DNA of 13,484 nt from Akkermansia muciniphila (GTDB taxonomy: Bacteria > Verrucomicrobiota > Verrucomicrobiia > Verrucomicrobiales > Akkermansiaceae), in assembly GCA_945870545.1 (NCBI GenBank), contig CAMBTF010000013.1, positions 1-13,484 on the forward strand, read 5' to 3'. Both the position numbers and the translations under genes were made by a program. Below the pieces are notes generated by a model. The model was given only the letters and a program-made list of their open reading frames with translations. It ran no database searches and was not told the origin of the DNA. How positions within the stretch are numbered: position 1 is the stretch's first letter; the number at the start of each line of letters is the position of its first letter. Positions 4,917 through 9,128 of the stretch are shown piece after piece.

Positions 4917-4972
4917 CCGTGATTTAAGAAATGATCCCGACAGGAATCGAACCTGTATCTAAAGTTTAGGAA
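4917..4972. repeat. Left attachment site (attL-type), 3' half of tRNA-Arg
   Basis: This is identical over 56 bp to 9042-9097. It contains tRNA nucleotides 32-72 (4972 back to 4932 on the minus strand), starting at the first base of the anticodon loop, plus 15 bp downstream of the tRNA. It is not a working tRNA, since the 5' half is missing. Integration with crossover in an anticodon loop is a known tyrosine-recombinase habit. Confidence 0.93.
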
Positions 4973-5007
4973 GCCCACGCTCTTAGCCGCCGTTAAAGGG
5001 CTTTTTT
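4971..5007 (+). terminator. Possible terminator inside left end
   Basis: AAGCCC (4971-4976) pairs with GGGCTT (4998-5003), followed by a T-rich run (TTTTTTGTTTTT). The 21-base loop is large, so this is weak. It could stop transcription coming from higBA copy 1. Confidence 0.3.
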
Positions 5008-5013
5008 GTTTTT

Positions 5014-5031
5014 GTAACCAAGTGTAACCAA
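5014..5031 (+). promoter_or_regulatory. Paired GTAACCAA motifs, left end (putative arm sites)
   Basis: GTAACCAA occurs at 5014-5021 and 5024-5031, 10 bp apart, followed by ATTTTGAT. The same pairing occurs at the right end (8930-8948), followed by TATTTGAT. One-turn spacing and position just inside both att copies fit arm-type sites for the integrase or its directionality factor. Confidence 0.5.
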
Positions 5032-5075
5032 ATTTTGATTTACAAGCCCCCTTTTCCGCTGCAAGAATCCGCGCC

Positions 5076-6407
5076 ATGCCGCGCCAACTTGTAACCGTCG
5101 AAGAGGTCAATCACCCCCGCTATTCGCACCGCGTCCGCTTCCCCGGCGAGGGAGGAAAGACGATGAGCAAGTGGTTCACGAACAAGACCGCCGCCAATGC
5201 CGAGGCCAAGACACGCCGGAAGGAAGTAGGCCGCGAAGGATTGGCTTTTGGAGTCCTTGGGGAAGGAGAGAAAGCCGCCGTGGAGTTCTGGCGCGGTTTC
5301 ATGGCCGAGGTTGCCGACACGCCGCCGCCGCCCTTGCTGGCGATCCTCCAAGGCTACGCCGAGACATGGAAGGCCACCCGTTCAAGCATGACGGTTGCCG
5401 CCGCCGTGGATGCCTATGAAGCCGCCAAGACTTCCGAGGGATTGCGCCCGCTGAGTCTGCAAGCCCTCCGCACCCGTTGCGCTCGATTCGTGAAGGCTTT
5501 CGGAAGCCGTCCGCTCGCCTCGATCACCACGGCGGAAGTTTCCGATTGGATTCTGTCCTTGGAGTCCACCCGCGCCCGCGCCACGGGCAAGGCCGGATCG
5601 AAGCCGACGAAAACGAAACAAGCCCCGCAAGTTGGACTTGTGGCGAAGCGGAATCACCGCCTCGCCCTATCCGGGCTTTTCGCCTTCGCCAAAACGCGGG
5701 GATGGGTTAAGGAAAATCCCGTGACGGATGCCGCCCGCCCCAAGCCGCCAAAGACGCGCCCCGGCCTTCTTCGCCCGTCCGAGGTTGCCCGGTTCTTTGC
5801 CGCCTTGCAGGAACACGCCCCCGCCCTTGTGCCGTTCTGGTCTGTCCGGTTCTTCGCCGGTATCCGCGAGCAGGAAGCCCTCCGAATGGATTGGAGCATG
5901 ATCGACCTGAAAGCCGGGGAAATCCACCTCCCCGATACTGTCACCAAGACAGGCCACCCGCGCACCGTGAAGATGGAGGCGAACCTTGCCGCCTTCCTCA
6001 CACCTCACACCCGCCCCGATGGGGCGATTGCGCCCAAGGCCGCGATGAAACGCCGCTACCACCTCGCCAAAGCGCACCGCGCCCTTCAAGCCGAGGATGC
6101 CGAGCGCGAAGCCGCTGGCGAGGAAGCCCGCGCATTCCCCGTGCCGATGCCCGCCAACGCCGCCCGCCACAGCTTCGCCACCTTCCACTTGCTCGCCTTC
6201 CGTCATGCCGGGGAAACGGCGATGCAGCTAGGCCACGGCGGAAGCCCGGAGTTGCTTCACCGCCATTACAAGGGCATGGCCACCGAAGCCGAGGCCGTGG
6301 AGTTCTGGAAGATCACGCCCGCCGCCGCCCCGGAAAACGTGGTTGCCATGCAAGCCGCCGATGCGTCCGCCGTGAAACCCGAAACCCGCGCCCAGAAGAA
6401 AGCATGA
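5076..6407 (+). CDS. Tyrosine recombinase (site-specific integrase)
   Basis: A protein of 443 residues. Residues about 15-55 (HRVRFPG...SKWFTNKTAANAEAKTRRKE) resemble the small arm-binding N-terminal domain of phage-type integrases. Residues about 103-215 are the core-binding helical domain, and about 230-412 the catalytic domain. Visible active-site residues are R264 (AGIREQEALRMDW), K291 (VTKTGHPRTVKM), R364, H387 (LGH) and Y398 (HRHYKG). The first residue of the usual H-x-x-R box is asparagine (N361-A-A-R364). It lies about 100 bp inside the left att copy, in tRNA-Arg, and should catalyse integration there. The stop TGA overlaps the ATG of higB by four bases (ATGA). No Shine-Dalgarno site precedes 5076; GGAGG with 7-base spacing precedes an internal ATG at 5163 (M30), but starting there would remove half of the N-terminal domain, so I keep the longer form. 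Confidence 0.93.
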   Translation: MPRQLVTVEEVNHPRYSHRVRFPGEGGKTMSKWFTNKTAANAEAKTRRKEVGREGLAFGVLGEGEKAAVEFWRGFMAEVADTPPPPLLAILQGYAETWKATRSSMTVAAAVDAYEAAKTSEGLRPLSLQALRTRCARFVKAFGSRPLASITTAEVSDWILSLESTRARATGKAGSKPTKTKQAPQVGLVAKRNHRLALSGLFAFAKTRGWVKENPVTDAARPKPPKTRPGLLRPSEVARFFAALQEHAPALVPFWSVRFFAGIREQEALRMDWSMIDLKAGEIHLPDTVTKTGHPRTVKMEANLAAFLTPHTRPDGAIAPKAAMKRRYHLAKAHRALQAEDAEREAAGEEARAFPVPMPANAARHSFATFHLLAFRHAGETAMQLGHGGSPELLHRHYKGMATEAEAVEFWKITPAAAPENVVAMQAADASAVKPETRAQKKA

Positions 6408-6682
6408 TTCTTTCCTTTGCCAACGCCGACACCGAGCAACTTTTCCGCACGGAAAGGAACCGCCGCTTTTCCTCCATCGCCCGCGTTGCCCTCCGTAAGC
6501 TCATTCAACTGAATCAGGCCGGGGAGTTGCGGGATATGGCCGCGCCGCCGGGGAACAGGCTGGAAGCCCTCAAAGGCAATCTTGCGGGCTTCCACTCGAT
6601 CCGCGTCAACGACCAGTGGAGAATTATCTTCCAATGGACGGAAAGGGGCGCGGAAAATGTCGCCATCACCGATTACCATTGA
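6404..6682 (+). CDS. higB: HigB-family toxin, copy 2, coupled to integrase
   Basis: A protein of 92 residues. It carries the same HigB landmarks as copy 1: [21 protein letters not shown] near 49-59, [15 protein letters not shown] near 64-78, and the VAITDYH end. Members are ribosome-dependent mRNA endonucleases. The ATG at 6404 overlaps the integrase stop as ATGA, and the start residues (MILSFAN) align with copy 1 (MIRSYAN). No separate promoter is seen before it, so it is probably read from the integrase transcript by translational coupling. Copy 1 in contrast has its own promoter. A longer open frame upstream (to 5891) is only a shadow of the integrase gene. The antitoxin gene follows 31 bases after the stop. 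Confidence 0.9.
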
Positions 6683-6693
6683 CCCGCCACCCA

Positions 6694-6708
6694 TAACGCT
6701 ACACGTTA
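6694..6708 (+). promoter_or_regulatory. Palindromic operator before higA copy 2
   Basis: TAACG-CTACA-CGTTA, an inverted repeat with 5-base arms and a 5-base centre, ends 5 bases before the higA ATG at 6714. The same TAACG-N5-CGTTA pattern forms the palindrome before higB copy 1 (4258-4272). This suggests the HigA binding site has moved between toxin and antitoxin in this copy. Confidence 0.55.
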
Positions 6709-6713
6709 CAGCT

Positions 6714-7010
6714 ATGAATCCACCCATCACACCCGGCGAGATATTGCTTGAGGAATATCTGAAACCGCTTGGCATTTCACAGAACGCCATGGCGCGGGCA
6801 ATCGGCGTATCGCCCCGCGCCGTCAATGAGATCGTGCTAGGGAAGCGGGCGATCACCCCGGCCATGTCCATCCGTTTCGGCGTGTTCTTCGCACAGTCCG
6901 ATCACTTTTGGCGCGGTATCCAAACGGAATGCGATTTCCGCGCCCTCGCCCGTGAACGGAAGGGACTCGTGAAAGGAATCCAACCCGCCGCCAAGCTCGC
7001 CGCACACTGA
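6714..7010 (+). CDS. higA: HigA-family antitoxin (XRE helix-turn-helix), copy 2
   Basis: A protein of 98 residues. It opens with the HigA signature ([20 protein letters not shown]), then the helix-turn-helix [20 protein letters not shown] (about residues 25-44) and an [10 protein letters not shown]...HFW segment. The last third differs strongly from copy 1, and overall identity is well under half. It should bind and neutralise HigB copy 2 and repress at the palindrome just upstream. The ATG at 6714 gives the normal family start. An open frame reaching back to 6582 overlaps the toxin and is not family sequence. No Shine-Dalgarno site is present. The integrase-fragment scar begins 16 bases after the stop. 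Confidence 0.9.
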
Positions 7011-7026
7011 AAGCCCATCCATGCCC

Positions 7027-8477: not shown

Positions 8478-8748
8478 TCTGAAACTGCCCCTTTGATAGA
8501 ATGAGGACACGCCGAAAGAGCCGCCACCGCGCCCACCGCCTGCTCCGCGCCAGCCGACTACCCGGCGACCCCGGCCTGCTCCGCGCCCTCGATCCGCGCC
8601 GTGGACAGCCGCAGACCTGATGAGGGGACGGGCGACGGCAACTTTTGAAAAAGCCGCGCCGTGGGAGAGTCGCCGCCGCGTCCTCGATCCGCGCCCACGG
8701 CCTGCTCCGCGTCCTCGATCCGCGCCAGCGTCCCCAGCTCGCCCAACC

Positions 8749-8782
8749 GCGCCCGCGCCCGCGCCCGCGCCCGCGCCCGCGC
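8749..8782 (+). repeat. GCGCCC hexanucleotide array
   Basis: Five full GCGCCC copies and a partial sixth. It translates as alternating Pro-Arg or Ala-Gly dipeptides, which explains the misleading open frames here. Confidence 0.95.
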
Positions 8783-8816
8783 TCAGGCCGTCGGAAAAAT
8801 CGACCGGGGGCGAGCT

Positions 8817-8835
8817 GTAACCAATTTGTAACAAC
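8817..8835 (+). promoter_or_regulatory. GTAACCAA motif pair, right end, inner
   Basis: GTAACCAA (8817-8824) is followed 11 bp later by GTAACAAC (8828-8835), with ATTT between them in the first spacer as in the outer pair. It is a probable degenerate arm-type site. Confidence 0.4.
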
Positions 8836-8929
8836 CCACCCGCGAACCTGTCACGAGCCGCCCGTCGGCGCATCCGGCGCAGAAACGGACACCGGGAAGC
8901 CGAGAAAGAGAGGAAAGCCCCGGAAGGTT

Positions 8930-8948
8930 GTAACCAATTTGTAACCAA
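8930..8948 (+). promoter_or_regulatory. GTAACCAA motif pair, right end, outer
   Basis: GTAACCAA occurs at 8930-8937 and 8941-8948, 11 bp apart, then TATTTGAT. It mirrors the left-end pair at 5014-5031. It sits about 95 bp inside the right att copy. Confidence 0.5.
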
Positions 8949-9019
8949 TATTTGATGCGAAACCGCGCATTTTCACGCATTCCGGCGCATTTCCCTAACA
9001 GCTCGAAATCCGCTCTAAT

Positions 9020-9039
9020 CCTTTAGAATTAAAGGTTTT
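9020..9039 (+). terminator. Small hairpin with T run next to right att
   Basis: CCTTTA-GAAT-TAAAGG followed by TTTT. It is AT-rich and short, so weak as a terminator. It may instead be structure tied to the attachment site or to the tRNA 3' end on the other strand. Confidence 0.25.
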
Positions 9040-9041
9040 AA

Positions 9042-9097
9042 CCGTGATTTAAGAAATGATCCCGACAGGAATCGAACCTGTATCTAAAGTTTAGGAA
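9042..9097. repeat. Right attachment site within tRNA-Arg
   Basis: A perfect 56-bp copy of 4917-4972. Here the repeat forms the 3' half of the complete tRNA plus its 15-bp downstream flank. Identity stops exactly where the tRNA anticodon stem 5' strand begins. Confidence 0.93.
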
Positions 9098-9128
9098 ACT
9101 CTTGTTCTATCCGTTGAACTACGGGACC
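9057..9128 (-). tRNA. tRNA-Arg (anticodon CCU)
   Basis: 72 nucleotides that fold cleanly. The acceptor stem is GGTCCCG/CGGGATC with one G-T pair, and the D stem is GTTC/GAAC. The anticodon stem is AGAGT/ACTTT with one G-T pair around loop TTCCTAA (anticodon CCT, reading AGG). The T stem is ACAGG/CCTGT with loop TTCGATT, and the discriminator is A. CCA is not encoded. In E. coli the equivalent gene (argW) is also a prophage attachment site. The 3' half is element-derived but identical to the displaced host copy, so function is kept. It lies 45 bases downstream of the hydrolase gene on the same strand. Confidence 0.95.

Follow-up and report, generated by a model that had tools for sequence, protein, structure and literature searches.

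Several described systems combine a tRNA target or a cos (packaging) site with small size. VEIMEs (virion-encapsidated integrative mobile elements) and tycheposons are small marine elements with a tyrosine recombinase and a tRNA target, and VEIMEs are packaged in virions. In P4-like satellites, the terminase of a helper phage packages the satellite DNA through cos, as is also stated in a source that mentions VEIMEs (PMC10690885). The features listed for phage-inducible chromosomal islands (PICIs) include an integrase (int), an excisionase (xis) and a primase/rep replication module (PMC6092414). In the PICI EcCICFT073, cosQ and cosN are like those of the helper but cosB is not, and there can be two cos sites (PMC6739421). 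Here, an element of 4.1 kb at the tRNA-Arg(CCT) gene of an Akkermansia muciniphila draft genome (GCA_945870545.1, contig CAMBTF010000013.1) is compared with these systems. The stretch of 13,484 nucleotides that was analysed is called the window. It is fairly likely that the element is a minimal cos-type phage satellite, which has its own int and xis and would use a helper phage for replication and packaging.

The element resembles the Gram-negative cos PICIs of the EcCICFT073 type in being a chromosomal element bounded by attachment (att) sites, with int, xis and no structural genes. The sharing of a short candidate cos element, AAGGAATCTTTT, between divergent surroundings would fit the pattern of similar cosQ and cosN but not cosB (PMC6739421). 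The two motif copies in the related element L082 and in the G111 loci L329 and L330 are like the two cos sites of EcCICFT073. Unlike in cos PICIs, no PICI regulator or Rpp was identified in the window, no helper is known, the element is as short as 4.1 kb, and the host belongs to another phylum. Two PICI features are lacking. The replication module is absent from the window, although int and xis are present and relatives have the module, and all five genes are on the plus strand, with no divergent master-repressor/operon arrangement. Thus, the element is not called a PICI and is regarded as a variant of cos-type satellites.

Unlike P4-like satellites, the window has no gene recognisable as the P4 primase, Psu, Sid or a relative of these. 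VEIMEs and tycheposons are similar in recombinase, target and size, and differ in their hosts; they are likened by description alone. The sequence-only reading, an earlier interpretation of the window, had placed the start of the repeat at the first base of the anticodon loop. Sites in this loop are common, with 2083 anticodon-centred sites for 3919 islands in Islander (PMC4383910). According to the same source, Islander tRNA islands share the anticodon-loop site, the displaced 3' tDNA fragment and tandem accretion (PMC4383910); Islander is a general catalogue and offers no transfer mechanism. No description of verrucomicrobial phage satellites was recognised in the open literature, subscription papers and preprints being outside the search. 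Searching the open literature for AAGGAATCTTTT as text returned four papers that are unrelated, judged by title only.

A 12-mer shared by tRNA-Arg(CCT) elements and terminase operons

The motif came from a short-word comparison of window positions 7060-9041 with relatives in a set of 145 related genomes, own genome included. Positions 8401-8420 match L081 and L082 over 20 bp inside otherwise unrelated non-coding DNA. AAGGAATCTTTT is present in all tRNA-Arg(CCT) elements for which sequence of the attR side is available: the window, L081, L082 (twice), L083, L085 and L143 (part of the G051 element). An unbiased count gave it as the sole 12-mer common to all six (or to five) of the tRNA-Arg(CCT) elements compared, always on the strand on which int reads forward. 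Among 17,772 permuted 12-mers, the maximum was two of six elements, reached by one. Over the 145 genomes, AAGGAATCTTTT occurs 92 times versus 42 times for the reversed control.

The surroundings of 42 sites, corresponding to 40 regions, were read. An integrase, primase or helicase related to those of the tRNA-Arg(CCT) element family lies near the motif in 10 of the 40 (L327, L328, L331, L334 (weak), L336, L338, L343, L346, L349 and L355), and the L345 region has a weaker primase match alone. At other tRNAs, the motif accompanies integrase and/or replication genes in L328 (tRNA-Cys, 52-bp repeat), L346 (tRNA-Ser, 29-bp repeat), L338 and L343. L175 (G006:C29), in a tRNA-Phe region, is satellite-like, with a DnaG-like primase, a helicase-like gene and the 12-mer; the same genome holds a tRNA-Arg element. 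L328, L346 and L175 indicate that other tRNA targets are used. In L329 and L330, near tRNA-Arg and tRNA-Leu at contig ends, two tandem 12-mers are ~110-120 bp apart.

The motif is also found ahead of phage terminase genes. In 26 of the 145 genomes there are, in total, 38 matches to PF05876 (GpA terminase ATPase). The exact motif lies upstream on the same strand in four of the 38 (G106, -804; G127, -1350; G112, -3316; G109, -3349), against 0.009 such cases expected by chance within 3.5 kb. G054:C346, where motif and terminase are 21 kb apart, was left out of the count. The gene order in the motif-bearing neighbourhoods is a helicase-type gene, the motif, a gene in the position of the small subunit (terS), terL and portal. 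Lambda cos occupies the corresponding place in the gene order. L204 and L254, which were found by the motif, have GpA terminases downstream of it (PF05876, PF20454).

A set of 16 loci was obtained from IMG/VR by terminase protein alone. The exact motif is upstream in L418, L420 and L421, and a one-mismatch copy is in L428. L421 and L397 are one and the same prophage (100% over 13,902 bp), so that L421 is no independent evidence, and L425 is the contig of L204, already found by motif. The motif is absent from 11 of the 16, eight of which (L419, L422, L423, L424, L426, L427, L429 and L430) have at most 1.1 kb of upstream sequence. Taken over 35 upstream regions (101 kb), four of them chosen by motif, the motif is in seven, from six distinct prophages or phages; 4995 of 5000 permuted 12-mers are in none and five are in one. 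The isolated Akkermansia phage Moulinsart has a one-mismatch copy, AAGGAATCTCTT, at 316. This copy precedes the gene pair 505-1086 and terL 1080-2804 and is 178 bp ahead of the first gene of the pair.

The genes in the terS position have a PHROG match in L083, L254, L399 and, weakly, L204, and none in L397, L400 and Moulinsart. The name terminase small subunit is tentative for the L175 and L338 genes. Pfam gave no match for either of them and PHROGs none for L175, and the label is based solely on position, mutual likeness and the likeness of the L175 protein to that of L254.

Some phage contigs begin just past the motif. The first base of L419 (99.98% identical to L418) and of L424 (94%) is precisely the one that aligns with L418:5026, 23 nt beyond the motif. 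The distant relative L422 starts at the same base (17-bp match, 88%, alone not significant), and the L423 start is similar by eye. The same start position in separate assemblies is as a fixed cut (cos) would give. The 12-mer is common to the window and GpA-terminase phages, and the sequence at the cut is not shared. AAGGAATCTTTT is probably part of a phage cos site. A 14-mer scan of IMG/VR gave at least 120 loci; those listed are mostly unrelated AT-rich phages, with 39 of 120 sites non-coding by the rule for open reading frames (ORFs). Four of these sites are within 35 nt of the locus end on the 3' side. The position of L178 (32 nt) and L214 (33 nt) would suit a virion end, which is doubtful for L195 (1 nt) and L227 (inside an ORF), and none of the four was used as support.

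Ends, genes and relatives of the element

The sequence-only reading had described perfect 56-bp direct repeats around an integrase segment, with the identity block beginning at tRNA nucleotide 32. Both points hold. The two copies, 4125 bp apart, do not differ at any base, and identity stops immediately outside them at either end. Such a repeat within 13.5 kb is far beyond chance. ARAGORN and Rfam agree on the tRNA and its anticodon. The right copy enters the gene at nucleotide 32 (9097; nucleotides 32-38 are TTCCTAA) and extends 15 bp beyond its 3' end. An intact tRNA and a displaced tRNA fragment thus flank the integrase gene, as in tRNA-integrated genomic islands.

Tandem repeats of 10-11 bp are present ~40 bp inside attL and again 126-138 bp inside the tRNA 3' end in the window, L081, L082, L085 and L153. 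The word TGTAACCA occurs in three elements, and TGTTACGG and TGTAAACG occur in L082 and L085. Window positions 8929-8989 match L153 18605-18664 at 75%. From their layout, the repeats near both ends would be arm sites of the integrase, and the GCGCATTTTC-like repeats next to them are possible Xis sites. The arm-type repeats near both att sites, the candidate packaging site and the remnant at ~4018-4916 described below were not part of the earlier reading.

The draft of the source genome (G000) comprises 1.97 Mb in 317 contigs and is 72% complete. The integrase has a match in 103 of the 145 genomes, mostly remote. Close integrases are in G006, G002, G009 and G030 (65-68%) and in G054 (51%), with fragments in G035 and G051, and an integrase 98% identical to that of the window is on three other contigs (P0005). 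At the same tRNA-Arg(CCT), L082 (G002) is an element of 6.9 kb with 44-bp perfect repeats, L085 (G054) one of 7.9 kb with 42-bp perfect repeats, L081 (G006) one of 6.9 kb whose longest perfect repeat stretch is 18 bp, and the G009 element (L083/L138) is ~15 kb. The G030 contig stops short of the tRNA. In L085 the repeat starts at tRNA nucleotide 29, and in the window, L081 and L082 it starts at nucleotide 32. Primase- or helicase-like genes lie between xis and attR in L081, L082, L083 and L085, and none does in the window. The large proteins of L081 and L082 match PHROGs of unknown function, and DUF5906 just weakly.

The element had been called unusually small. That description stands for a 4.1-kb unit with its own int and xis, but the smallness looks derived, because the related elements found at this tRNA in other genomes measure 6.9-15 kb and have replication-type genes. 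The window element looks to have descended from the larger kind of tRNA-Arg satellite through loss of replication genes.

No relaxase, replication or structural family was found in the five element proteins with Pfam, NCBIfam and PHROGs, and no head, tail or terminase family was assigned among them. The statement that transfer, replication and packaging genes are absent is consistent with this, but the element does have a probable packaging site. Through its helix-turn-helix (HTH), the excisionase-like protein has a match (5.6e-4) to phrog_57, a family of terminase small subunits. The first His of the HxxR motif is usual in tyrosine recombinases; in integrases of this family, Asn stands in its place. 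The toxin-antitoxin pair is recognised as HigBA (PF05015, 3.3e-17; TIGR02607, 86.1 bits with a cut-off of 47.7). PADLOC gave no convincing defence gene among eight proteins, with two weak matches.

The 209-aa protein has no family match, and its gene appears chimeric. Positions 7606-7681 match the beginning of a primase-like ORF in L081 (75% over 77 bp) and also L084. From residue 51 to 182, the protein is similar to the C-terminal portion of a Bro-N-type protein in G032 (28%, 6.9e-15) and of P0004, which has a Bro-N domain (38%). The chimera also occurs in P0002 (84%) and P0003 (71%, with an insertion), showing that the compact form exists elsewhere. The predicted structure is poor (mean predicted local distance difference test 50.4, predicted template modelling score 0.26, four sequences), and the model is unusable.

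In the proposed mechanism, the integrase would join the attP core, the 3' part of tRNA-Arg, to the host tRNA gene through paired arm sites at both ends, and the excisionase-like protein would reverse the integration. The element would make no virions and would not replicate its own DNA. Once excised, it would be replicated by a helper phage, or perhaps by a sibling satellite, and a lambda-like GpA terminase of the helper would package it after recognising the cos region around AAGGAATCTTTT. The HigBA pair would be cargo that favours retention. Dependence on a helper, as the sequence-only reading had proposed, is supported by the cis site common to terminase-bearing phages. The copy in the window may still function and be mobile in this way.

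Weighing the satellite and its alternatives

Several observations weigh against a packaged satellite. Many motif copies are due to chance. In 27 of the 40 regions read, including L338, L346, L355 and L345, the motif is inside an ORF of >150 aa, and four of the other 13 (L337, L344, L351 and L359) are among ordinary chromosomal genes. The integrase relatives L086-L090, L092 and L153 have no motif. For the window, L081 and L082, the discovery of the motif was post hoc. Of the 38 GpA neighbourhoods, 20 were fetched and 16 of them have no exact motif, eight with the full 5 kb upstream and eight with at most 2.2 kb. In IMG/VR, L417, L431 and L432 are true negatives, with upstream sequence present and no motif. 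The phage sequence at the cut, GGATTATCGTCCC, was not seen in the window, and no GpA terminase was found in the own draft genome (72% complete). Scanning IMG/VR viral contigs with the integrase alignment, which finds close relatives only, gave no member of the satellite family and one remote match (22%). Scans with the L081 helicase and the L085 primase, likewise limited to close relatives, gave no match, and scans with two terminase-small-subunit-like proteins gave no satellite-family member. A genome of 4.1 kb is far under the usual capsid capacity, and multimers would be required.

The element may instead be a dead remnant, a prophage or satellite stripped of most genes and now fixed, whose perfect repeats merely reflect recent history. 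An undoubted remnant adjoins it (4018-4874), integrase debris lies within it, replication genes are missing, and the 209-aa gene resembles a deletion fusion. However, all five genes are open, the att copies are identical over 56 bp and the arm pairs are intact. The presence of the fused gene in P0002 and P0003 indicates that the compact form is a maintained lineage, and a dead remnant is considered unlikely. Alternatively, the 12-mer could be a replication origin or regulatory site of an integrative element moved by conjugation or generalised transduction. The motif is indeed usually downstream of replication-type genes, but it is common to elements with different replication modules and to the window with none, it is upstream of phage terminase genes, and phage contigs start just past it. 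Moreover, no relaxase family was found in the proteins scanned. This explanation is very unlikely.

A chimeric contig, in which the surroundings of the element are not real, is also to be considered. Host DNA at 1-3894 has its counterpart in G005 contig C168, and the tRNA and yheT have theirs in contig C106 of that genome. These two regions are separated by 1.2 Mb in G004, a genome consisting of a single contig. The break is at a repeat found at 17 other places in the genome. On the other hand, the break lies outside the element, to the left even of the remnant. On the right, the flank with tRNA, yheT and ffh shows synteny with G005, and the layout of the element recurs in independent genomes. 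It is very improbable that the element's surroundings are an artefact in this sense, and the left junction itself appears to be either a rearrangement or a misassembly.

If the element is a minimal cos-type satellite, it shows how small a satellite becomes with just integration functions and a packaging site, and the minimal needs of a satellite become directly testable. The motif offers a short concrete sequence for linking satellites to their helper phages from sequence alone, in a bacterial group that has received little study, and it predicts the cut position in virion DNA. A wider picture is put forward only tentatively. Verrucomicrobiales may harbour a broad undescribed family of cos-type satellites that use many tRNAs and interchangeable replication modules and share a near-invariant AAGGAATCTTTT with GpA phages. 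The window would be its extreme 4.1-kb case, borrowing replication and packaging, possibly from sibling satellites, as a parasite of satellites.

Features of the window and the neighbouring remnant

Table 1. Positions of features in and beside the tRNA-Arg(CCT) element (window coordinates).
Feature	Position	Strand	Remark
Dispersed repeat bordering the remnant on its left	3965..4021		17 other places in own draft genome, E <= 0.001
Older remnant, integrase C-terminal fragment	4018..4239	+	4018-4189 identical to 6189-6360 at 157/172
Older remnant, HigB-type gene	4289..4573	+	
Older remnant, HigA-type gene	4584..4874	+	one of the family searches covered 4497-4874
attL, 56-bp direct repeat	4917..4972		copy of tRNA-Arg 3' part + 15 bp
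Arm-type site pair TGTAACCAAG TGTAACCAAA	5013..5032	+	adjoins attL; same layout in L081, L082, L085, L153
Tyrosine-recombinase integrase	5076..6407	+	443 aa
HigB-type toxin of toxin-antitoxin pair	6404..6682	+	putative cargo
HigA-type antitoxin	6714..7010	+	
Integrase-gene debris	7014..7244	+	between higA and xis
Excisionase-like HTH protein	7286..7525	+	79 aa
209-aa protein	7522..8151	+	primase-like ORF start, body like Bro-N antirepressor C-terminal part
AAGGAATCTTTT	8404..8415	+	candidate cos (packaging) element
46-bp stretch just past the candidate cos motif	8445..8490	+	repeated at 4873-4918 (35/46 identical)
Second arm-type pair, attR side, less perfect	8816..8837	+	extra in window
Arm-type site pair, attR side	8929..8950	+	128 bp from tRNA 3' end
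GCGCATTTTC-like repeats between arm pair and core	8951..8996	+	L081, L082 similar by eye
attR, 56-bp direct repeat	9042..9097		inside and past tRNA gene
tRNA-Arg(CCT), intact target gene	9057..9128	minus	

The left neighbour of the element is not plain host DNA. From its gene fragments, the stretch at about 4018-4916 is the remnant of a previously integrated relative, displaced by the second insertion, and it stands at the rearranged or misassembled junction. The dispersed repeat of ~57 bp sits where the two chromosomal regions meet. The higBA pair of the remnant and the inner pair are identical at 48/92 residues for HigB and 35/95 for HigA.

Within the element, the debris consists of one int 3' end and two int-internal copies; 7014-7060 is like the int 3' end, and 7185-7244 is identical to int 5563-5622 at 58/60. 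These pieces are a sign of repeated recombination between int copies. GC-rich repeats are present at 8527-8782, and at a like place L081 has a 68-bp tandem array (13362-13733, 5.4 copies) adjoining attR.

A search for the same tRNA gene without the insert had been suggested as a check, and such sites exist, contrary to the refuting case named there, in which no related genome would have an empty site. G005 and G004 have the identical tRNA without a repeat copy, and the stretches of 20 kb that were read contain no gene related to those of the element. In G005 the tRNA-Arg(CCT) is still next to yheT. The empty site is visible on the tRNA side only. In the two closest kin, G008 (L066) and G053 (L067), no tRNA-Arg(CCT) gene is left beside yheT; each genome has one elsewhere, which differs somewhat in sequence.

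Small integrase elements are also seen at tRNA-Ser(TGA). L097 (G015) has a 58-bp repeat, and L096 (G094) has two partial tRNA copies. Their arrangement suggests tandem insertion.

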